From the NCBI RefSeq assembly GCF_009939005.1, contig NZ_JAACJS010000002.1, forward strand, positions 340,646 to 404,645: DNA of 64,000 nucleotides, given 5' to 3'. Every line of letters begins with the position of its first letter. Position 1 is the stretch's first letter. Shown here one piece after another: positions 2,632 through 12,222 of the stretch. The translations under genes were made by a program, and so were the position numbers. Origin of the DNA: Sediminibacterium roseum. Lineage in GTDB: Bacteria > Bacteroidota > Bacteroidia > Chitinophagales > Chitinophagaceae. The notes under the pieces were generated by a model, which did not search any database, was not told the origin of the DNA, and was given only the letters and a program-made list of their open reading frames with translations.

Positions 2632-2649
2632 TTAACCTTTATTAACCTT
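2632..2649 (+). promoter_or_regulatory. Direct-repeat operator TTAACCTT x2, 10-bp period
   Basis: TTAACCTT occurs at 2632-2639 and again at 2642-2649, exactly one helical turn apart, upstream of the -7 box of the beta-barrel gene. The same pair, inverted, lies between the GLPGLI and histidine kinase genes (7493-7510). Tandem half-sites about 10 bp apart are typical of OmpR-family regulators, and the regulator at 9357-10040 is the obvious candidate. Its binding is inferred. Confidence 0.6.
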
Positions 2650-2689
2650 TCTCTCATCTAAATTAACGCCCCCAGCCACGGCGCGCAGC

Positions 2690-2697
2690 TACTTTTG
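2690..2697 (+). promoter_or_regulatory. Bacteroidota -7 promoter box (TACTTTTG)
   Basis: This matches TAnnTTTG exactly, 23 bp upstream of the ATG of the barrel gene. A -33 TTG element is not obvious, which would fit a promoter that needs the activator site at 2632-2649. Confidence 0.55.
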
Positions 2698-2720
2698 GAT
2701 CATTATAAACCAAAATTGCT

Positions 2721-5555
2721 ATGAACCGGATTTTTACACTGCTTGCTTTTTTTATTCTCCCTTTTATTGTACAGGCCCAACAGCAACCCGCCATCCGTGG
2801 TGTTGTTTATGATACCGCTTCGAAACACGGGCTGGCCTATGCAACCGTGTCGATCGTTAATGCGAAAGATTCTACACTCGTAACCTTCACCCGCGCCGAT
2901 TCTACCGGTAAATTCAAGTTCGGACCGCTGGGCAAGGGTAAGTATTTGTTGTCGTCTTCTTATGTGGGTTTTGTTCCGGTATGGAAACCGCTGAACATTG
3001 AAACAGACGGGCAATTGGTTGAGATGGGAAACATCGCCATGACAGACATTCTCAGTTCGGGCGATGTAACCGTTACCGCCCGCAGACCGCCTGTTACCAT
3101 CAGCGGCGACACAGTAGAATTCAATACAGAAAATTTTAAAACGCAACCCAATGCCGTTGTTGAAGACATGCTTAAAAAAATGCCCGGTATTACCGTAGAC
3201 AACGATGGAACGGTGCGTATGAACGGCCAGAAAATAAACAGGGTATTGGTGAATGGAAAAGAGTTCTTTACCGGGGATCCCAAAATGGCCACCAAAAACC
3301 TCGATGCGGATGCGGTAGACAAAGTACAGGTATTCGATAAAAAAAGCGACCGTGCAGAGTTTACCGGTGTGGATGACGGACAAAGTGAAAAAACGATCAA
3401 CCTTAAACTGAAAAAAGACCGCAACCACGCGCTGTTCGGGAAAGTAAGCGCGGCCGCAGGCACAGAAAGCCGCTGGGACGGGCAAACCAATATCAATAAA
3501 TTCAATGGCGACCAGCAATTGTCGTTCATAGGCATGGCCAACAACACCAACCGCCAGGGCTTCTCTATTTCAGATATCCTGAATTTCACCGGCGAGTTAT
3601 CGCGTGGCATGCGGAGCGGTGGCGGTGGTATCGTGATCAATACTGGAGGACCGGGTGGTGATAACAACGGGTTGCCCGTAACCGGTGCCGGACAGAATGC
3701 GCAGGGTGTGGCAACAACCTATGCCGGCGGCATCAACTTCAATGATACCTGGAACAAGAAAACGGATTTCAATGCAAGCGGTATGGGAAGCAACATCGAT
3801 CTGCTCACAAACAGGACAACCAACCGCCGTTTCGGCTTCAATGGCGGAGGTAGTGATTACGAAGAAGAGCGAACCAGCAATACTGCGCGCAACAGCAGGC
3901 AGCAGCGGGTGAATATGATGATCGACAGCAAGATCGATAGTTTCAACGCGATTAAATTTACGCCTTCGTTTACCACGCAGCAGGTAGACTCGCGCACCAC
4001 CACTTCCTATCTACAGCAAAACCTGAAAGGCGTGAAACTGAGCGAAGGAACAACAGACAATTCAACACATTCCGATGCATTCAATTTTGGCGGAACGGCA
4101 TTGTTCAGGAAACGTTTCCAGAAAAAAGGAAGAACCATTTCGAGCCAGGTAACGCTTGCATACAACGACAGCAAACAGGACGGATCGGTAAACAACCTCT
4201 TCCGCAATTACGTGGGTGGTGTTGCCAGGCCTGATTCTGTTGTTGACCAGCGCAACAGGCGCGAAGCCGTTACGCGTGGTTTTGGTGCGAACATTGTTTA
4301 TACGGAACCGGTGGGCAAAAAATCATTGCTCGAGTTCAGCGGTTTTTACAACACCAATGTGGGTGATGCGAAACGCCTTACGTATGATTATGGAAAAAGT
4401 TCCGGCAAATACGACCAGTTCAACGCGGCGCAAAGCAATGATTTCAAAAGCGATTACAGCTATGGCGGCGGTAGCCTGAGTTTCCGTTCGAACCAGAAGA
4501 TGTTCAACTATACCATCGGTACCACATTGCAGGAAGCAAAACTGAACAGCTATAACAATACTACCGGAACGGCCATCAGGCAATCGTTCACAGATGCGTT
4601 GCCGAGTGCAAGCCTCACTTACAAAATCGCGAGCTCACGTTCATTGAGCCTGAACTACAGCACATCAACAACACAACCCAGCACCACGCAGTTGCAGCCG
4701 GTTGCCGATGTAACGGATCCAACCAATACCTATATCGGTAATCCGAACCTGAAACGCAGCTATGCACAATCGATCAGCCTGAATTATTTTTCTACCAACA
4801 TGTATACGCAGCGCAATTTCTTCGCATTTATCTCTGCATCAAAAACGGATAATGCGATCACCAATTCAGATTCGCTTGTGAATACGGGCGGCAGTAACCT
4901 GCGGATCTCATCGCCGGTTAACGTAAGCGGCAACTACATGTTGTTCGGAAGCATCAATGCAGGCTTCCCGATGAAGAAACTGAAATCGAGGCTCGACATT
5001 GGTATCGGTACAAACTTCATTCACAACAACAGCTTCATCAGCGGAAAACCAAACGTGATCGAGAACATGAGCCTCAGCCCGAACCTGACCTATAACTTTT
5101 ACCTCGAAGGCAAAATGGACCTCAATGCCAATGCAAGGCTCAACATCAGCAAAGCCACATATTCGGCGCAGCCGCAGATCAACAGCAATTACCTGCAGCA
5201 GGTGTATGGCTTTGACATGACGAACTACCTGCCATGGGGGTTGGTATTGAACAACAACTTCAACTACACCGTTAATTCCGGGCGCGCGGATGGGTTCAAT
5301 ACGAGTGTGGGTTACTGGAACGCTTCAATCGCCAAAAGCTTTATGAAGAACAAACGGGCGGAGATCAAGCTTACTGCGTTCGATATCCTGAAACAAAACC
5401 AGGGCATCAGCCGCAACGCCAACCAGAACTATGTAGAAGACACGCGTTACAACGTGCTGCAGCAATATTTCACACTGGGTTTCACATTCAGTCTTAACAA
5501 AGCGGGCAACACCGCCAACGGCGCACGTATTGTTACCCGAACTATCGGGGGGTAG
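2721..5555 (+). CDS. TonB-receptor-like outer-membrane beta-barrel protein with carboxypeptidase-regulatory domain
   Basis: The 944-aa product has a signal peptide (residues 1-20, FIVQAQQ junction), a CarboxypepD_reg-like beta-sandwich (about 24-105), a plug-like domain (about 130-235, with PGITVDNDGTVRMNGQKI and VLVNGKEFF) and then a long barrel rich in alternating aromatic/polar strands. A Gly-rich loop near residues 295-320 is probably extracellular. This is the OMP_b-brl family of Bacteroidota, related to TonB-dependent receptors, but no TonB box is evident, so the substrate and energy coupling are unknown. GLPGLI proteins are often neighbours of this family, and one lies at 6601-7431. 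Its promoter carries the same direct repeat as the GLPGLI/kinase region, which suggests common control. Confidence 0.85.
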   Translation: MNRIFTLLAFFILPFIVQAQQQPAIRGVVYDTASKHGLAYATVSIVNAKDSTLVTFTRADSTGKFKFGPLGKGKYLLSSSYVGFVPVWKPLNIETDGQLVEMGNIAMTDILSSGDVTVTARRPPVTISGDTVEFNTENFKTQPNAVVEDMLKKMPGITVDNDGTVRMNGQKINRVLVNGKEFFTGDPKMATKNLDADAVDKVQVFDKKSDRAEFTGVDDGQSEKTINLKLKKDRNHALFGKVSAAAGTESRWDGQTNINKFNGDQQLSFIGMANNTNRQGFSISDILNFTGELSRGMRSGGGGIVINTGGPGGDNNGLPVTGAGQNAQGVATTYAGGINFNDTWNKKTDFNASGMGSNIDLLTNRTTNRRFGFNGGGSDYEEERTSNTARNSRQQRVNMMIDSKIDSFNAIKFTPSFTTQQVDSRTTTSYLQQNLKGVKLSEGTTDNSTHSDAFNFGGTALFRKRFQKKGRTISSQVTLAYNDSKQDGSVNNLFRNYVGGVARPDSVVDQRNRREAVTRGFGANIVYTEPVGKKSLLEFSGFYNTNVGDAKRLTYDYGKSSGKYDQFNAAQSNDFKSDYSYGGGSLSFRSNQKMFNYTIGTTLQEAKLNSYNNTTGTAIRQSFTDALPSASLTYKIASSRSLSLNYSTSTTQPSTTQLQPVADVTDPTNTYIGNPNLKRSYAQSISLNYFSTNMYTQRNFFAFISASKTDNAITNSDSLVNTGGSNLRISSPVNVSGNYMLFGSINAGFPMKKLKSRLDIGIGTNFIHNNSFISGKPNVIENMSLSPNLTYNFYLEGKMDLNANARLNISKATYSAQPQINSNYLQQVYGFDMTNYLPWGLVLNNNFNYTVNSGRADGFNTSVGYWNASIAKSFMKNKRAEIKLTAFDILKQNQGISRNANQNYVEDTRYNVLQQYFTLGFTFSLNKAGNTANGARIVTRTIGG

Positions 5556-5637
5556 TCTTACTGGTATACAAGAGAAAGTAAAACGCGAAAAAGAAAGCTT
5601 ACACAATTCTTCCTCGTTTTTCTCCTGTGCGTTTTAG

Positions 5638-5673
5638 ACCCCACCTCTGTTTGAGGTGGGGTTTTGTTTTTTT
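5638..5673 (+). terminator. Rho-independent terminator after the barrel gene
   Basis: A perfect 10-bp stem (5638-5647 with 5653-5662), a 5-nt loop and a T-rich tail (TTTTGTTTTTTT) follow the stop codon by about 80 bp. Confidence 0.92.
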
Positions 5674-6074
5674 GATAATGTATGGAACTGGAATTTATTG
5701 CAACATAAACAACAAAACGCAGTAAACTACGTTGGCTTCTAAAGAGAGCATCTTTTCTTCTTTAACAGCATCCGCGATTTGCGTGGAATGCTGTTGAAAA
5801 ATTTCAAAGTTTTCAAAAGCTGCAACTGACCAATGCGATCGGGTTTTGCATATATAATTACTGCTGGCGACCAACATCAACAGCGGAGGTTTTGGTCAAT
5901 ATAAGTGGATTGTGTTTTCTATTGAAGCGGAACGAAGCTGGAAAAAGGATTGCTGCCAATCCGACACTTGACTGTTTTCACCAGGGATGGGCTTCCCGTT
6001 GTACTTTCTATTACCTTCGTTCTTGTTATGAAAGGACCTTGTAAATCCATCCCTGTTGTAAAGAAGTACATACA
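5674..6074. other. Gene-poor stretch, lower G+C than its surroundings
   Basis: No convincing gene is present. Short open frames exist on the minus strand (5695-5880, 5896-6135), but they lack recognisable domains, a ribosome site or a promoter. The stretch looks AT-richer than the genes on either side and contains the left copy of an 11-bp direct repeat (5890-5900). Confidence 0.5.
5890..5900 (+). repeat. Left copy of an 11-bp direct repeat flanking the 143-aa gene
   Basis: TTTTGGTCAAT here recurs at 6530-6540. With one gap, the match extends leftward through GAGG. The copies are 640 bp apart and bracket the orphan gene at 6075-6506. They may be a target duplication or scar, or chance. Confidence 0.35.
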
Positions 6075-6506
6075 ATGACAGCAGAAGATTATTTCTATAA
6101 TGAGCGCAGGCATCTTCGGCACGCTCTGAATGCAAAATCGATTGCAGTGTACCTGTACGAACTACAGTACGCTAATGGATTTGCGGTAACTGCCTATCTT
6201 AAACTCATCTTTGAGAATGGTACCTGCTTTTTTTTGGGTACAGGTAGTATGGCCGACAATCTTATCGTAATGAATGAATCTGAGTTCAAAAAAGAGGAAT
6301 CGTATTATCAATTACAGGAAGGAGTAAAGCTATTGAAAGTAGAATCAGAATACACTAACCAGCTGGCCGGTAAACAATTGACAGACCTTAAATGCTTTCA
6401 AAAACCCGGCGAGCCATACTGCTGTCAGATCGACTTCTGCTTTCAGGATCATATTTTAGAAGTATTTGCTGCAATTGATGGTTTGCTGGTGTCAGTAAGA
6501 ACATAA
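6075..6506 (+). CDS. Hypothetical protein, 143 aa
   Basis: I do not recognise the family. The product has no signal peptide or membrane segment. Its middle part (about 25-140) looks like alternating beta strands, with a strand-turn pattern (LIFENGTCFFLGTGSMADNLIVM) and a Cys-containing stretch (PYCCQIDFCFQDH). The gene stands alone between the barrel terminator and a convergent GLPGLI gene, seems AT-richer than its neighbours, and is flanked by an 11-bp direct repeat (5890-5900, 6530-6540) and a long palindrome downstream. These features are compatible with a recently inserted small cassette, but that is inference. The ATG at 6075 has no clear Shine-Dalgarno, which is usual here. Confidence 0.55.
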   Translation: MTAEDYFYNERRHLRHALNAKSIAVYLYELQYANGFAVTAYLKLIFENGTCFFLGTGSMADNLIVMNESEFKKEESYYQLQEGVKLLKVESEYTNQLAGKQLTDLKCFQKPGEPYCCQIDFCFQDHILEVFAAIDGLLVSVRT

Positions 6507-6529
6507 GTATTGATGTTCGGCTGTGAGGA

Positions 6530-6540
6530 TTTTGGTCAAT
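6530..6540 (+). repeat. Right copy of the 11-bp direct repeat
   Basis: TTTTGGTCAAT, matching 5890-5900. It sits directly against the left arm of the palindrome at 6541-6581. Confidence 0.35.
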
Positions 6541-6581
6541 GATAAAGGGGTTATCGATTTATAATCGATAACCCCTTTATC
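6541..6581. repeat. Perfect 19-bp inverted repeat with 3-nt loop between convergent genes
   Basis: The arms 6541-6559 and 6563-6581 are perfect reverse complements around TAT, and one more pair (6540/6582) extends the stem. There is no T-run on either side, so it is not a textbook terminator. Its place between convergent stops (6506 and 6601) still suggests a bidirectional transcription block. Confidence 0.8.
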
Positions 6582-6600
6582 AATTAGGCCACATTAACCC

Positions 6601-7431
6601 TTAATTTCCGAACCTGATCACACCGCCGCCCATTGGTATTCCGCCGCCATTGCCCATGAGGTCCATCATCATCTTCACGTATTCCTGCTGGGTAACCACT
6701 TTTCCTTTCTTCGGCTCTTTGAGGCTTTTCTGGTCTACCGTTTTTTTGATATCCGTTGCTGTGTAAACCGTTGCGCCGTTGTCTACATCCAGCTGAAGGA
6801 TCACGCCGGGTAACTGGCCATAGCTCTCGGGCCCCGCCGGGCTAACAATATCATCTGCATACCAGGCAACAACCTCTACTTCTTTTCCAGCAGGTACCGC
6901 GCCGGGCCGTGCTGTTTTTGCCGTGTCGGCCGGGGGCGCGCTTGGTCCGCCAAACACCATACGCCGCTGCGCCGGCTGTATGATCTTGCGGGTTGCTTTG
7001 TGGCAGATGTGTCCCAGGATGGTTTTGGTTTCGTCACCCAGTTTCCAGGGTTGCTGGCGTATGCTGTCTACGATCAGGAAATTTTTACCTCCCAATTCCG
7101 AGCTCTGGATCGATTTCATCTGCGAAAAATTCTTGTACGTTTCGCTTCCGGCCCCGCCCATTGTAAATACCATTCTGCGGGCGCCACCGCCGCCTGCAAA
7201 GGGATCCGGCGCTTCGTCTTCAGGGATCAGTTTATAAAGCGAAACACTATCGCTGAACTCAAGCTGGTATTTTGCAGTGCGGAACTCGGGCATCATCGCC
7301 TTCATCTGTTCGTCCTGGATGTTGCGGTGCATGTTGATCTTCTGGTCATAAACGATCGTACCCGCTTTCATCTGCGCATGCAAAAGAGAAACGCTGGCAA
7401 AGCCAGCCATAAGTAGAAATACTTTTTTCAT
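6601..7431 (-). CDS. GLPGLI family secreted protein
   Basis: The 276-aa protein has a signal peptide (residues 1-20, ending LLHAQ) and the layout of the Bacteroidota GLPGLI family: an early GTIVYDQKI strand, a middle core with the ILGHICHKATRKI segment, a WYADDI segment and the family-naming motif as GQLPGVILQLD (about residues 205-215). A Gly-rich loop (FAGGGGARR) and a Pro/Ala-rich insert near 165-185 are extra. The function of the family is unknown; members are exported and often lie next to outer-membrane barrel proteins. It is divergent from the kinase gene at 7555 and shares an intergenic operator with it. Confidence 0.88.
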   Translation of the reverse strand: MKKVFLLMAGFASVSLLHAQMKAGTIVYDQKINMHRNIQDEQMKAMMPEFRTAKYQLEFSDSVSLYKLIPEDEAPDPFAGGGGARRMVFTMGGAGSETYKNFSQMKSIQSSELGGKNFLIVDSIRQQPWKLGDETKTILGHICHKATRKIIQPAQRRMVFGGPSAPPADTAKTARPGAVPAGKEVEVVAWYADDIVSPAGPESYGQLPGVILQLDVDNGATVYTATDIKKTVDQKSLKEPKKGKVVTQQEYVKMMMDLMGNGGGIPMGGGVIRFGN

Positions 7432-7454
7432 GGAAGTCTGGTTTATTAAGGTTT

Positions 7455-7462
7455 CAAATCTA
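7455..7462 (-). promoter_or_regulatory. -7 promoter box (TAGATTTG) for the GLPGLI gene
   Basis: On the minus strand this matches TAnnTTTG exactly, 24 bp before the ATG. An AAGGT half-site at 7478 falls near the expected -33 position and the repeat pair at 7493-7510 lies just beyond it. Confidence 0.6.
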
Positions 7463-7492
7463 GTGTGCGGGCTTGTTAAGGTGCCTTACTCT

Positions 7493-7510
7493 AAGGTTAA
7501 TTAAGGTTAA
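7493..7510 (-). promoter_or_regulatory. Direct-repeat operator (AAGGTTAA x2, 10-bp period) between divergent promoters
   Basis: AAGGTTAA at 7493-7500 and 7503-7510 is the reverse complement of the TTAACCTT pair at 2632-2649, with the same 10-bp spacing. Further AAGGT half-sites lie at 7448 and 7478. It sits between the -7 boxes of the GLPGLI gene (7455-7462) and the kinase gene (7540-7547), so one bound regulator could act on both. Autoregulation by the adjacent OmpR-type protein is the simplest reading. Confidence 0.62.
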
Positions 7511-7539: not shown

Positions 7540-7547
7540 TATATTTG
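7540..7547 (+). promoter_or_regulatory. -7 promoter box (TATATTTG) for the kinase-regulator operon
   Basis: An exact TAnnTTTG match ends only 7 bp before the ATG at 7555, so the 5' leader must be very short or absent. Confidence 0.6.
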
Positions 7548-7554
7548 TAAGGCA

Positions 7555-9360
7555 ATGGGGCCATCCAATAAATTAAATCTCTCGCGCGTACTGCTCTCCT
7601 CGGCGATCCTGCTGATCGTTGCGTTCCAGTGCTATTGGCTCAACCGGCTTTACAAAGACGAGTGGCAGGGCCTCAAAAAAGAGACCAATGGCATTTTCCG
7701 CGATGTGATCTATAATGTACAGCTGCAGCGGTTTTCGAGAGACTCCTTCATCAGGCGGCAGGTGGCGGGCACCAACCTTTTTGCACATACGGCTGTGAAT
7801 GTATTGCGCAGCCAGACAGCGGCGCTTCCCGATAAAGCAAAAAAACGTTTGCAGGATTCCCTGCGCCAGGATTCGATCTCGCGCGCCGGCGCCGCCCCAC
7901 CGTCCGGGTTCACTTTTAAAATTGTGAACAGGAACACCGGCGACAGTTTGCCCGTGGTAAAAGGCATTGCATTGAGAGGTGATCTTCCGCCGGAGATCGC
8001 GGCGAGGATTGCGGCCAGGGGGCAGATCAGCCATGTAAAACTGCCGCCGCTCATGGATTCGGCCATGCTCGACCGTATGGCGGTAGAGGGGGTAAAGATC
8101 GTTGTGAACCAGCGTTACGATTCAGCATCGCCGCAAACCACGCACCTGCGTACGGTGCAGGGCGCAGCGGCCATCAGCAATATCCTGTTGGAGAAACCCG
8201 CCAAAGCCAAAAAGGGAAAACCAGTGGCCACCTCTATCATCAGGGCAACCGCGGCAACCACTACTTCGGGAATCATCGTGTCTAACCGGCTGCCATCGCG
8301 CCTGCGCGAAAATTCCTTTATCCGGCTGATCTCTAACGGGAAAGTGATCGACGATACCATACCCGTTCGCAAACTCGATTCGGCCTACCGTAAAGAATTA
8401 TCCAAAGCGGGCATACCCATCAGCTTTTACATAAAAAAAGGCGCGGACGATTCATTGCATTGGAAGGATACCATCCCCGCCACCGTGTTTTCAACAGGAA
8501 CGGCCGGCGCGGGATTGATACATCCTTTCTGGTACCAGGCGGGGTTTGAAGACCCGACCGCTTTTTTGCTGAAGAAAATTTCCCTGCAGATCCTGTTCTC
8601 CGTTTTTCTTGTGGCGTTTACATCGCTCGCCTTTATCTTTCTTTACCGCAACCTGATGGCGCAAAGAAAGTTAACCGAAATGAAAAACGATTTCATCAGC
8701 AACATCACCCACGAATTAAAAACACCATTGGCAACCGTAAGCGTGGCAGTGGAAGCGTTGCGCAATTTTGGCGGGATACAAAACCCGGAACGCACAAAAG
8801 AATACCTCGATATTTCGGCATCGGAATTACAACGACTCAGTTTACTGGTTGATAAAGTCCTCAAACTGTCCCTCTTCGAAAACAGGGAACTCGAACTAAA
8901 AAAAGAAATGTTCGACCTGAGAGAGCTCACCGAAGAAGTGCTGAACACGATGAAACTCCAGTTCGATACCAACAAGGCAAAAGTTGAGCTGGATGTACAG
9001 GGGAACTATTTTACCATCCATGCAGACAGGCTCCATATTACAAGCGTGATCTTTAACCTGCTCGACAATGCCCTGAAATACAGCAATGGCAAGCCGCATA
9101 TTTTCATACGCCTGCACCACCAGACAGACCAGGTTATGCTGCAGGTAGAAGACAAAGGCATAGGCATTGCACCCGATTTCAAGTCAAAAATATTCGACAA
9201 ATTTTTCCGCGTGCCAACGGGAAACCATCACAACATCAAGGGATATGGATTAGGGCTCAGTTATGTTGCACACGTGATCAGGCAGCACAACGGAACCATT
9301 TCTGTAGACAGCGAGCCGGGGCATGGCAGCACCTTTACCGTTAAATTTCCTATTACATGA
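7555..9360 (+). CDS. Membrane sensor histidine kinase (OmpR-type partner)
   Basis: The 601-aa kinase has a TM helix at about residues 12-30, a long periplasmic sensor region of about 310 residues without a domain I can name, and a second TM helix at about 345-368. The cytoplasmic core follows directly without a clear HAMP domain: the HisKA box FISNITHELKTPLATV with phospho-acceptor His386, the N box NLLDNALKYS (Asn501 onward), the G1 box EDKGIGIAP and the G2 region GYGLGLSYV. The gene overlaps the regulator by four bases. The layout resembles RprX-type kinases of Bacteroides, and the signal is unknown. The divergent GLPGLI gene and shared operator suggest that it monitors the envelope. Confidence 0.93.
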   Translation: MGPSNKLNLSRVLLSSAILLIVAFQCYWLNRLYKDEWQGLKKETNGIFRDVIYNVQLQRFSRDSFIRRQVAGTNLFAHTAVNVLRSQTAALPDKAKKRLQDSLRQDSISRAGAAPPSGFTFKIVNRNTGDSLPVVKGIALRGDLPPEIAARIAARGQISHVKLPPLMDSAMLDRMAVEGVKIVVNQRYDSASPQTTHLRTVQGAAAISNILLEKPAKAKKGKPVATSIIRATAATTTSGIIVSNRLPSRLRENSFIRLISNGKVIDDTIPVRKLDSAYRKELSKAGIPISFYIKKGADDSLHWKDTIPATVFSTGTAGAGLIHPFWYQAGFEDPTAFLLKKISLQILFSVFLVAFTSLAFIFLYRNLMAQRKLTEMKNDFISNITHELKTPLATVSVAVEALRNFGGIQNPERTKEYLDISASELQRLSLLVDKVLKLSLFENRELELKKEMFDLRELTEEVLNTMKLQFDTNKAKVELDVQGNYFTIHADRLHITSVIFNLLDNALKYSNGKPHIFIRLHHQTDQVMLQVEDKGIGIAPDFKSKIFDKFFRVPTGNHHNIKGYGLGLSYVAHVIRQHNGTISVDSEPGHGSTFTVKFPIT

Positions 9361-10040
9361 GCATAAAAGTATTGTACGTAGAAGATGAATTGTTTCTCGG
9401 AAAGATCGTGAAAGAAACCCTCGAGTTGCGCGGCTTTGAAGTGATCATGGAAAGCGATGGGGCGGACGTGGTACAGTCATTCGAAAAAAACAACCCGGAT
9501 ATCTGCGTATTTGATGTGATGCTCCCTAACCGGAGTGGGTTCGAACTTGCAGAAGACATCCGCAAACTGAACGATGATGTGCCCGTGATCTTTCTCACCG
9601 CCAAAACCCAAACAGACGATGTGGTGCATGGTTTCAAAATCGGCGGCAACGATTACATACGAAAACCGTTCAGCATGGAAGAACTCATCGTAAGGATCGA
9701 AAATGCACTGCGGTTAAAAAAAGACGAGCCGCTTACGCTGGTGGGCGATACGGTACAGATTGGAAAATACCAGTTTCATCTGAACAAACAGGTGCTTGCC
9801 ATAGGGGCCGAAGAAAAAAAACTTTCTTACCGCGAAAGCGAACTGCTCAAATACCTGTACCTGCACCGCGACCAGGTAATAGACCGCCGCGACCTGCTCA
9901 ACCACATCTGGGGCAACGACTCCTTTTTCAACAGCAGAAACCTCGATGTATACATCACCAAGATACGCGGGTACCTGAAAGAGGATGATGCACTGGAGAT
10001 CATCACGATCAAAGGGGTGGGTTACAGGTTCATAGGGTAA
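9357..10040 (+). CDS. OmpR/PhoB-family response regulator
   Basis: The 227-aa protein has a receiver domain (1-120) with acidic residues E9/D10, phospho-acceptor Asp53 (FDVMLPNRSG), Thr in FLTAKTQ and the conserved Lys in IRKPFS. A winged-helix Trans_reg_C domain (about 130-227) ends in the VGYRF strand. The start ATG overlaps the kinase stop (ATGA), so the two form a coupled pair. OmpR-type regulators bind tandem half-sites about 10 bp apart; the pairs at 2632-2649 and 7493-7510 fit this and would give autoregulation plus control of the GLPGLI and barrel genes. Confidence 0.94.
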   Translation: MSIKVLYVEDELFLGKIVKETLELRGFEVIMESDGADVVQSFEKNNPDICVFDVMLPNRSGFELAEDIRKLNDDVPVIFLTAKTQTDDVVHGFKIGGNDYIRKPFSMEELIVRIENALRLKKDEPLTLVGDTVQIGKYQFHLNKQVLAIGAEEKKLSYRESELLKYLYLHRDQVIDRRDLLNHIWGNDSFFNSRNLDVYITKIRGYLKEDDALEIITIKGVGYRFIG

Positions 10041-11373: not shown

Positions 11374-12222
11374 ATGAAAAAGACTACGATCCTAAATCCG
11401 TTTTTTTTATTATTCATTATTATTTGTTCATTATTGATTTCGGCCTGTTCTCCTAACAACGTGAAGACAGATGACTCGCTGAAAAAATATTTCGAAGAGA
11501 AAAATGTGACAGGCACTTTTGGTTTGTACGACAATGGAAGCGGCCAGTTTACCATCTACAATTTGTCGCGTTTTAAAGATTCAGCTTATTTACCCGCATC
11601 CACATTCAAGATCGTTAACACGCTGATCGGCCTTGAAACGGGTAAGATCGTAAACGAACAGATGGTGATCCCATGGGATGGCGTGGTCCGCGTTTTCCCC
11701 GGCGGAGATACTGCAAAGTCATGGAACAAGGACCTTACCATGGAGCAGGCCTTCAAAGCCTCTGCCGTTCCTTACTACCAGGAAGTGGCCCGCCGCATAG
11801 GCAGGGAAAACATGCAGCACTGGCTGGATACGCTCAACTACGGCAGCAAAAAGATCACCACGAAGATCGATACATTCTGGCTCGACAATTCGCTGAAGAT
11901 CACTCCTGATGAAGAAATGGGACTGGTGAAGAAGTTATACTTCGGTCAACTTCCCTTCCAGAAAAGATCGCAGGACATTGTTAAGAAGGTCATGCTCCAG
12001 GAAGACAATGCCAATTACAAACTCAGCTACAAAAGCGGCTGGGGTTTCCGTGAAAACGGGAACGCGCTGGGCTGGATCGTTGGATGGATAGAAGAGAACA
12101 GGCACCCTTATTTCTTCGTGTTGAACGTAGAGGGTGCTCACGATCTTAACCTCGGCACTTTGCGATTGGATATATTGAAGGCGATCCTGAAACAGAATGG
12201 ATTCCTGGAAGGGAAAAGATAA
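11374..12222 (+). CDS. Class D (OXA-type) beta-lactamase, lipoprotein
   Basis: The 282-aa product has a lipoprotein signal peptide with lipobox ISAC (Cys25), so it is probably anchored in an envelope membrane. The class D motifs are in order: S76-T-F-K79 (nucleophile Ser and the Lys that is carboxylated), S130-A-V, Y156-G-S (YGN position, Asn to Ser) and K220-S-G (KTG position). WDG after the first helix and FWLDNSLKITPDE are also typical of OXA enzymes. The family hydrolyses penicillins, sometimes carbapenems; the spectrum cannot be told from sequence. No mobile element is near, so it looks chromosomal. The upstream 40 bp and the signal-peptide codons are very AT-rich. Confidence 0.9.
   Translation: MKKTTILNPFFLLFIIICSLLISACSPNNVKTDDSLKKYFEEKNVTGTFGLYDNGSGQFTIYNLSRFKDSAYLPASTFKIVNTLIGLETGKIVNEQMVIPWDGVVRVFPGGDTAKSWNKDLTMEQAFKASAVPYYQEVARRIGRENMQHWLDTLNYGSKKITTKIDTFWLDNSLKITPDEEMGLVKKLYFGQLPFQKRSQDIVKKVMLQEDNANYKLSYKSGWGFRENGNALGWIVGWIEENRHPYFFVLNVEGAHDLNLGTLRLDILKAILKQNGFLEGKR

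Follow-up and report, generated by a model that had tools for sequence, protein, structure and literature searches.

The locus and its operator

The window analyzed here is a stretch of 64,000 nucleotides from Sediminibacterium roseum. It carries genes for an outer-membrane beta-barrel protein, for a GLPGLI family protein and, divergent from the latter, for a sensor histidine kinase and a response regulator (Table 1). With a receiver domain and a winged-helix Trans_reg_C domain, the regulator is a member of the OmpR/PhoB family. The structure model of the kinase has a pLDDT of 68.4, with most of its sensor region under 50, a quality insufficient for comparing its fold.

Table 1. Genes, operators and -7 boxes of the locus (positions refer to the window).
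Feature	Position	Strand	Details
Outer-membrane beta-barrel protein, 944 aa, CarboxypepD_reg + OMP_b-brl_3	2721..5555	+	PF14905 4.2e-37, PF13620 1.2e-10
GLPGLI family protein, 276 aa	6601..7431	-	TIGR01200 130.9 bits, cut-off 50; signal-like N-terminus by eye
Sensor histidine kinase, 601 aa	7555..9360	+	HisKA 2.3e-15, HATPase_c 1.1e-27
OmpR/PhoB-type response regulator, 227 aa	9357..10040	+	Response_reg PF00072 3.1e-26, Trans_reg_C PF00486 6.3e-19
Triple operator, barrel promoter	2632..2667	+	TTAACCTTTATTAACCTT (2632-2649) plus third half-site TTAAC 2663-2667
Triple operator, GLPGLI-kinase intergenic region (divergent genes)	7475..7510	-	TTAACCTTAATTAACCTT (7493-7510) plus third half-site 7475-7479; points to GLPGLI
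-7 box TACTTTTG, barrel promoter	2690..2697	+	22 nt past triple operator
-7 box TAGATTTG, GLPGLI promoter	7455..7462	-	12 nt past triple operator
-7 box TATATTTG, kinase-regulator promoter	7540..7547	+	29 nt from operator

A previous, sequence-only reading of this DNA had proposed that an exact pair of half-sites, spaced by 10 bp, precedes the barrel gene and recurs between the GLPGLI and kinase genes. Both pairs occur as described, with no mismatch and with 10 bp from start to start. They form part of a longer operator, TTAAC-N5-TTAAC-N16-TTAAC, whose third half-site had been overlooked: at both window operators a further TTAAC sits 21 bp past the second. Within the operator, the half-sites begin at positions 1, 11 and 32 and a degenerate copy lies near position 22; the operator amounts to 15 fixed bases. 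It is oriented toward the GLPGLI and barrel genes, and away from the kinase gene.

In the window, TTAACCTT is found six times where 1.94 occurrences are expected, a count reached in none of 100 shuffles. By arithmetic from the window shuffle count, about 0.002 exact pairs are expected per 4.5-Mb genome; three are present, two of them in the window. The third, also missed by the earlier reading, lies upstream of a second operon, which contains two GLPGLI genes (L350), and these same three places are the exact triples of the genome. The pair is hence not common at unrelated loci, since all three exact copies precede GLPGLI or barrel genes. Relaxed searches are less informative: at up to three mismatches the genome holds 39 pairs versus 61 for the reversed control, i.e. 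no enrichment, and at up to one mismatch the 117 family genomes hold 119 versus 75 in a manual count, a modest enrichment. Because looser pairs are little or not at all enriched over the reversed control, a site is meaningful only if it is exact or nearly so and stands in the right place, and sites with the pair alone were left out as proven targets. Another seven GLPGLI genes of the same genome lack an operator within 260 bp, and their best pairs carry 4-7 mismatches.

Distribution of the operator among Chitinophagaceae

Searched across the family, the exact triple gives 86 matches in 45 of 117 genomes (own genome included), whereas the reversed-pattern control gives 8. All but one of the 86 adjoin a barrel gene, a GLPGLI gene or a related kinase/regulator pair. 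Automatic classing placed 83 of them: 38 before a barrel gene, 38 between GLPGLI and kinase genes, six before a kinase gene and one before a GLPGLI gene. The remaining three comprise the second GLPGLI operon (L350), a site beside a related kinase/regulator pair (L398), and L402, for which we have no explanation. Kinase matches at E<=1e-70 are present in 44 of the 117 genomes, again including the own genome, and the co-occurrence of operator and kinase is pronounced (38 genomes with both, 6 with the kinase only, 7 with the operator only, 66 with neither; p=2e-17, where relatives count as non-independent samples). Five of the six kinase-positive genomes without an exact triple keep the pair at 0-2 mismatches, and the sixth is truncated by the end of its contig. 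The triple of G006 and G106 adjoins a kinase/regulator pair other than the kinase match of these genomes.

Of 43 relatives in which the kinase has a match, 40 entered the locus set used to examine conservation together with the gene set; G006, G106 and G042 stood outside it, the locus of G042 being added later and the other two later represented by other loci. The operator is retained at up to three mismatches in 38 of these 40 loci; of the two exceptions, L093 runs off its contig, and L128 shows four mismatches but an exact triple. A wider search in named records found 80 loci, two of which were dropped for short upstream sequence. Of the 78 whose upstream sequence is long enough, 75 carry the operator, with preference given to candidates that have a -7 box on the kinase side, and L265, L269 and L291 show none; the third TTAAC stands at the identical place in 73 of the 75. 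This set overlaps, e.g. at L091 and L275, with the 39-row set of operators at up to three mismatches, from which L093 and L128 were left out, and relatives are not independent samples in either. Rearranged loci are instructive: in L399 and L400 the operator lies 3' of the regulator gene and before a barrel gene, and in L225, from another family of the same class, it precedes a barrel-GLPGLI-kinase gene row. The operator travels with the two-component genes through rearrangements.

A phylum-wide composite search matched 75 of 395 genomes. Many of the matches outside the family are TTAAC arrays with other spacing, some of which (L233, L234) adjoin housekeeping-type genes, and they were set aside.

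A broad, Cpx-like regulon served as a working idea that the triple-operator search narrowed. According to this alternative, the pair alone would let the same regulator act on two secreted proteins, one with tandem PDZ domains and one of 175 aa, as well as on FKBP prolyl isomerases and an ECF sigma/anti-sigma pair. In four relatives (L227, L157, L135, L177) the PDZ gene does have a pair with one mismatch 56-73 bp in front of it, and in the window's genome such a pair precedes it as well, with a -7 box. Furthermore, two FKBP genes in a row of three (L348) have a pair with two mismatches in front of them; the gene of the 175-aa protein (L349) is preceded by a run of four half-sites in 10-bp steps, two reading GTAAC; and downstream of the L004 site lies an ECF sigma gene whose homologue in L092, close to the regulator, is 76% identical. 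However, none of these sites has an exact third half-site, and of 62 further pair sites with no more than one mismatch in the relatives' loci, a count that leaves out three more in G010 and G027, 47 are without it and nine fall inside a reading frame. The four PDZ relatives were moreover drawn from loci chosen by a pair or composite match, so that PDZ genomes without an operator would stay invisible; this led us to lower our estimate slightly, and we regard the broad regulon as doubtful. The demonstrable target set of the operator is narrow. Since the operator stands almost only before the kinase/regulator, GLPGLI and barrel genes, all of them very probably belong to a single dedicated envelope circuit.

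Promoter geometry and the sign of regulation

PhoB and OmpR activate from half-sites that are arranged head to tail, roughly one helical turn from each other, and that abut the -35 region. The window operator resembles this arrangement in its head-to-tail half-sites at about one helical turn; it differs in the 10-bp spacing, the 21-bp step to the third half-site and the Bacteroidota -7 element. The consensus of that element in sigma-A promoters of Bacteroidota is TAnnTTTG (PMC9723704), and exact copies, as previously claimed, are present at the barrel, GLPGLI and kinase promoters. A -7 box (TAnnTTTG or TAnTTTCG) follows 78 of the 86 triples at either of two spacings that differ by one helical turn; a shuffled control for the fixed offsets yields a mean of 0.24 and a maximum of 3 in 500 rounds. 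TAnnTTTG at 21-22 nt accounts for 47 of the 86 sites and TAnTTTCG at 22 nt for 21. In this 21-22-nt class (68/86) a half-site overlaps the -35 region, which is not the case in the 11-12-nt class (10/86). Among the relatives, the GLPGLI -7 box lies at offsets 29/30 or 39/40 past the pair in 32 of the 39 rows, and the kinase-side box at offset 27-30 in all 39 rows and at 28-30 in 72 of the 75 operators.

At the barrel promoter activation is the likeliest sign, because the last half-site occupies -39 to -35, the position at which a PhoB/OmpR-type class II activator would take over from the -33 element. The third half-site of the 12-nt class, to which the window GLPGLI promoter belongs, falls within the promoter, at -29 to -25, and this geometry fits activation less well than that of the other class. 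Could the regulator instead repress the GLPGLI and barrel genes? The overlap in the 12-nt class would suit a repressor, and among the relatives RprY of P. gingivalis was read as one (PMC3646045) and Riemerella PhoP represses two GLPGLI genes and a barrel gene (PMC9603813). Riemerella PhoP, however, activates three other GLPGLI genes (PMC9603813), and the commoner 22-nt class offers, judged from PhoB and OmpR cases, the usual activator place at -39 to -35. Repression is therefore possible but, in our estimate, unlikely. At the kinase promoter, the nearest half-site of the shared operator lies at -46 to -42.

The regulator, its relatives and the proposed circuit

The best NCBIfam match of the window regulator is RprY (NF051850), with 234.6 bits and thus below the cut-off of 370; Riemerella PhoP scores 293.1 and the RprY-type paralogue L332 of the window's genome 306. 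In the regulator tree, the window regulator belongs to a separate set of 19 rows (98/94), outside the RprY/PhoP rows, and Riemerella PhoP groups with L332 (100/98). PhoP was rejected as an orthologue because the tree places it in a sister clade, and it is 39% identical to the window regulator. A recognition helix of the FxxRxxDVYIxKLR-like type is common to the window and RprY clades, whereas six other paralogues of the same genome differ. PhoPR of Riemerella anatipestifer resembles the window system: an OmpR-type regulator with the reported motif TTTAACA has direct targets including five GLPGLI genes and an outer-membrane barrel gene (PMC9603813), targets a Do-type protease as well and binds upstream of its own operon (PMC9603813, PMC5399024). 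Its DAP-seq peaks nevertheless precede 764 genes, 50 of which changed in the mutant (same papers), unlike the narrow operator set of the window system. BLAST of the ORFs adjoining Riemerella PhoP gave no match to the window GLPGLI protein.

These affinities raise the question of whether L332 (C8:724090) is the main reader of the operators, or reads them jointly, with the kinase/regulator beside GLPGLI as one of two inputs. Its sister position to a regulator with the motif TTTAACA, the very similar recognition helices and the TTAAC arrays at 10-11 bp before the kinase genes of RprY-clade loci elsewhere in the phylum (L231, L232, L239, L240) speak for this. Yet 85 of the 86 triples adjoin GLPGLI, barrel or window-like kinase/regulator genes (the tree covered part of these regulators), the 9.5 kb around L332 contain no TTAAC/GTAAC pair at the spacings tested, and the half-sites tend toward TTAACC in the window clade versus TTAACA in the RprY clade. 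We consider this reading improbable, although L332 could be a co-user of the sites.

We therefore return to the autoregulated, largely dedicated envelope two-component circuit of kinase/regulator, GLPGLI protein and barrel, which we hold to be highly probable. The kinase would probably sense a periplasmic or membrane condition and phosphorylate the regulator, which would bind the head-to-tail TTAAC half-sites in front of the GLPGLI gene, the barrel gene and the second operon (two GLPGLI genes and a barrel-like gene), probably in the form of two tandem dimers; the GLPGLI protein and the barrel would be the outputs. Such a circuit had been suggested by the sequence-only reading. Its linkage of controller, GLPGLI and barrel is borne out by the conserved, near-exclusive operator, amended here by the third half-site and the narrow target set. 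Autoregulation, for which the layout of the shared operator at the kinase promoter is the evidence, is probable and less sure than the rest, because the operator is oriented away from the kinase.

The GLPGLI protein is predicted to be secreted, and its structure model (pLDDT 85.1) has a predicted LolA/RseB-like half-barrel fold. The fold search ranks the N-terminal domain of PNGF-II closest (Z 17.3), with LolA reaching 10.6 and RseB 10.3; the resemblance to the lipid-binding LolA/RseB-like proteins is one of predicted fold only, and the Pfam scan gave no LTXXQ match. One solved PNGase, 7zgn, bears the GLPGLI name. Passages from two papers that use the term GLPGLI name no function for it. In the CpxP-CpxRA layout, the gene of a secreted protein is divergent from a kinase/regulator pair, as is the window GLPGLI gene, and RseB/MucB has the fold predicted for GLPGLI (Z about 10). 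By analogy, and tentatively, GLPGLI might be the sensor or feedback arm of its own kinase: the predicted half-barrel would bind lipid, lipoprotein or misassembled outer-membrane protein and tune the divergent kinase, with the co-regulated barrel as client or conduit, in a Bacteroidota outer-membrane quality-control loop older than Chitinophagaceae.

Once joined to a regulator, a fixed partner barrel and an operator that amounts to 15 fixed bases, the orphan GLPGLI family becomes a testable circuit, and the predicted fold points to what GLPGLI assays should examine. The specificity of the operator (86 versus 8 control matches in 117 genomes) suffices to find this circuit in raw genomes of the family.

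A three-part operator and its promoters

The sequence-only reading had proposed that the promoters of the barrel, GLPGLI and kinase genes share a pair of TTAAC half-sites, each promoter with an exact TAnnTTTG box. Both pairs in the window are indeed exact, with a start-to-start spacing of 10 bp, and the box is present at all three promoters. TTAACCTT occurs six times in the window versus 1.94 expected, a count reached by none of 100 shuffles. The genome-wide search proposed at the time returns three exact pairs in 4.5 Mb; two are those of the window, and the third is on contig C7. Looser matches are little informative: at up to three mismatches this genome contains 39 pairs versus 61 for the same pattern reversed, and at up to one mismatch the 117 family genomes contain 119 versus 75 (counted by hand).

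That reading overlooked a third TTAAC, which lies 21 bp past the second half-site at each window site and gives an operator of the form TTAAC-N5-TTAAC-N16-TTAAC. The genome contains three exact triples and one with a single mismatch (control: two at up to one mismatch). The third triple, outside the window, sits before two genes of the GLPGLI family (158.4 and 164.7 bits; cut-off 50); the protein encoded next, of 887 aa, has a CarboxypepD_reg domain, and the Pfam scan detected no barrel domain in it. Among 86 family sites, a CAA-like trace near column 22, between the second and third half-sites and where a fourth would begin, suggests that the operator would be bound by two tandem dimers.

Positions of window features and of the second RprY-type regulator of the same genome
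Feature	Position	Strand	Remark
Barrel operator	2632-2667	+	triple
Barrel gene	2721-5555	+
GLPGLI gene	6601-7431	-
GLPGLI-kinase operator	7475-7510	-	triple
Kinase gene	7555-9360	+
Regulator gene	9357-10040	+
Predicted lipoprotein	11374-12222	+	resembles class D beta-lactamase; STFK motif (by eye)
RprY paralogue (L332)	1582-2277 in locus L346; C8:724090	-	ORF map shows no obvious kinase neighbour

TAnnTTTG starts 11-12 nt past the triple at 10 of these 86 sites and 21-22 nt past it at 47; the variant TAnTTTCG follows at 22 nt in 21. A box at these fixed offsets is thus found at 78/86 sites (500 shuffles: mean 0.24, maximum 3), and only two such boxes occur at other offsets within the 80 bases searched. 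On the kinase side, the box lies 27-30 nt from the operator in 39/39 rows. When the -7 box is set at -12 to -5, as in PMC9723704, the last half-site occupies -39 to -35 in the commoner class, to which the window barrel promoter belongs; in the other class, that of the window GLPGLI promoter, it occupies -29 to -25. Because the commoner class resembles the known class II activation by PhoB/OmpR, the sign of control is likely, if unproven, by analogy; it may differ between promoters. At its 21 sites TAnTTTCG occupies exactly the position of TAnnTTTG; in the inspected loci it is found mostly ahead of barrel genes, and it is possibly another promoter class.

Distribution within the Chitinophagaceae

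Our survey covered 117 genomes of 100 genera, the window's genome included. The exact triple has 86 matches in 45 genomes (reversed pattern: 8 matches), and 44 have a kinase match at E<=1e-70. Both occur together in 38 genomes, the kinase alone in 6, the operator alone in 7 and neither in 66 (p=2e-17, kinship ignored); in two of the genomes (G006, G106) the operator adjoins a different kinase/regulator pair from the match counted. Five of the six kinase-only genomes retain the pair (0-2 mismatches) before the kinase, and the sixth is interrupted by a contig end. In four of the seven operator-only genomes (G001, G101, G026, G031) the operator lies beside a different kinase/regulator pair that belongs to the same clade; in G074 the kinase is apparently cut off at a contig end, and G048 and G112 (83 and 69% complete) have just barrel sites and the L402 site. 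All 86 triples were classified: 38 before barrel genes, 38 between GLPGLI and kinase genes, 6 before a kinase, 1 before a GLPGLI gene, and 3 others, namely the second GLPGLI operon, L398 beside a related kinase/regulator pair, and L402, which fits no class.

Conservation in relatives with the regulator was borne out in public named records, from which 80 loci were retrieved with a regulator alignment (among others from Sediminibacterium, Terrimonas, Niastella, Filimonas, Foetidibacter, Paraflavitalea, Flavitalea and other Chitinophagaceae). The operator is present at up to three mismatches in 75 of the 78 loci with sufficient upstream sequence. Among these 75, the third half-site stands at the identical place as TTAAC in 73 and CTAAC in 2, with a -7 box at 28-30 nt on the kinase side in 72 and at 29, 30 or 40 nt on the GLPGLI side in 67.

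The regulator and its relatives

The operator accompanies the two-component genes despite rearrangement. In the window, kinase and regulator are divergent from GLPGLI; L225, from another family of the class, has one operator followed by a barrel-GLPGLI-kinase row on one strand; and L399 and L400 show the order kinase-regulator-operator-barrel. In a regulator subclade (L176, L182, L184, L411), a TMEM260-like protein O-mannosyltransferase, assigned by Pfam for L411 and by similar N-termini for the others, takes the GLPGLI position behind the operator.

A tree of 32 regulators places the window regulator within a 19-row set (98/94) adjoining the RprY/PhoP rows. The Riemerella PhoP row was located through a published primer of its kinase, its species assignment being inferred. 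This protein was rejected as orthologue of the window regulator because it pairs with L332, the RprY paralogue of the window's own genome (100/98). With no obvious kinase gene next to it, L332 resembles RprY of P. gingivalis, which is an orphan. The recognition helix is common to the window clade and the RprY/PhoP group and differs from that of six other paralogues. TTAAC direct repeats accompany both groups in the examined loci, except around L332, where none were found. The common helix and repeats indicate that the half-site probably predates the split of the two groups. In another class of the phylum (L231, L232, L239, L240), RprY-type kinase/regulator pairs have TTAAC arrays with 10-11 bp spacing in the interval that separates the kinase gene from a divergently encoded small secreted protein; the one tested (L240) has no Pfam match.

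A description of the operator-kinase-GLPGLI-barrel circuit was not found in the open-access literature searched. For Riemerella PhoP, PMC9603813 reports DAP-seq and RNA-seq and the motif TTTAACA. Its direct targets there include an outer-membrane barrel, a Do-type protease and five GLPGLI genes, of which it represses two and activates three. These data are an experimental precedent from the sister clade, not proof for the window regulator.

Regulon extent and the GLPGLI protein

For seven other GLPGLI genes of the window's genome no operator lies within 260 bp, so the circuit concerns particular members of the GLPGLI family. A regulon wider than the triple-operator promoters is possible. In four relatives, among loci chosen for the motif, the gene of a tandem-PDZ secreted protein is preceded at 56-73 bp by a pair with one mismatch, and in the window's genome this gene has a pair together with a -7 box. 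The case is weaker for FKBP prolyl isomerases, a 175-aa secreted protein and an ECF sigma factor. In L144 (genome G004), an LTXXQ (Spy/CpxP-type) protein gene lies 75 bp behind a pair with one mismatch; in two genomes of another family (L233, L234), a conserved TTAAC pair and -7 box immediately precede a gene that resembles purQ (by eye).

The model of the window GLPGLI protein (pLDDT 85.1, with 44 relatives from fetched loci included) best matches the N-terminal domain of PNGF-II (Z 17.3), followed by that of the PNGase 7zgn (Z 17.1), which its depositors named Glpgli family protein. VioE, ependymin-related proteins, LolA (10.6) and RseB/MucB follow at Z about 10-12. LolA uses the half-barrel of this fold to bind lipids, and RseB uses it to sense envelope stress; such a fold in common, seen in a predicted model, shows no function for GLPGLI. 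Given that the GLPGLI and kinase genes are divergent and apparently under common control, our boldest reading, which we consider rather unlikely, is that GLPGLI would be an accessory protein that binds a lipid or a protein and exerts feedback on the kinase.
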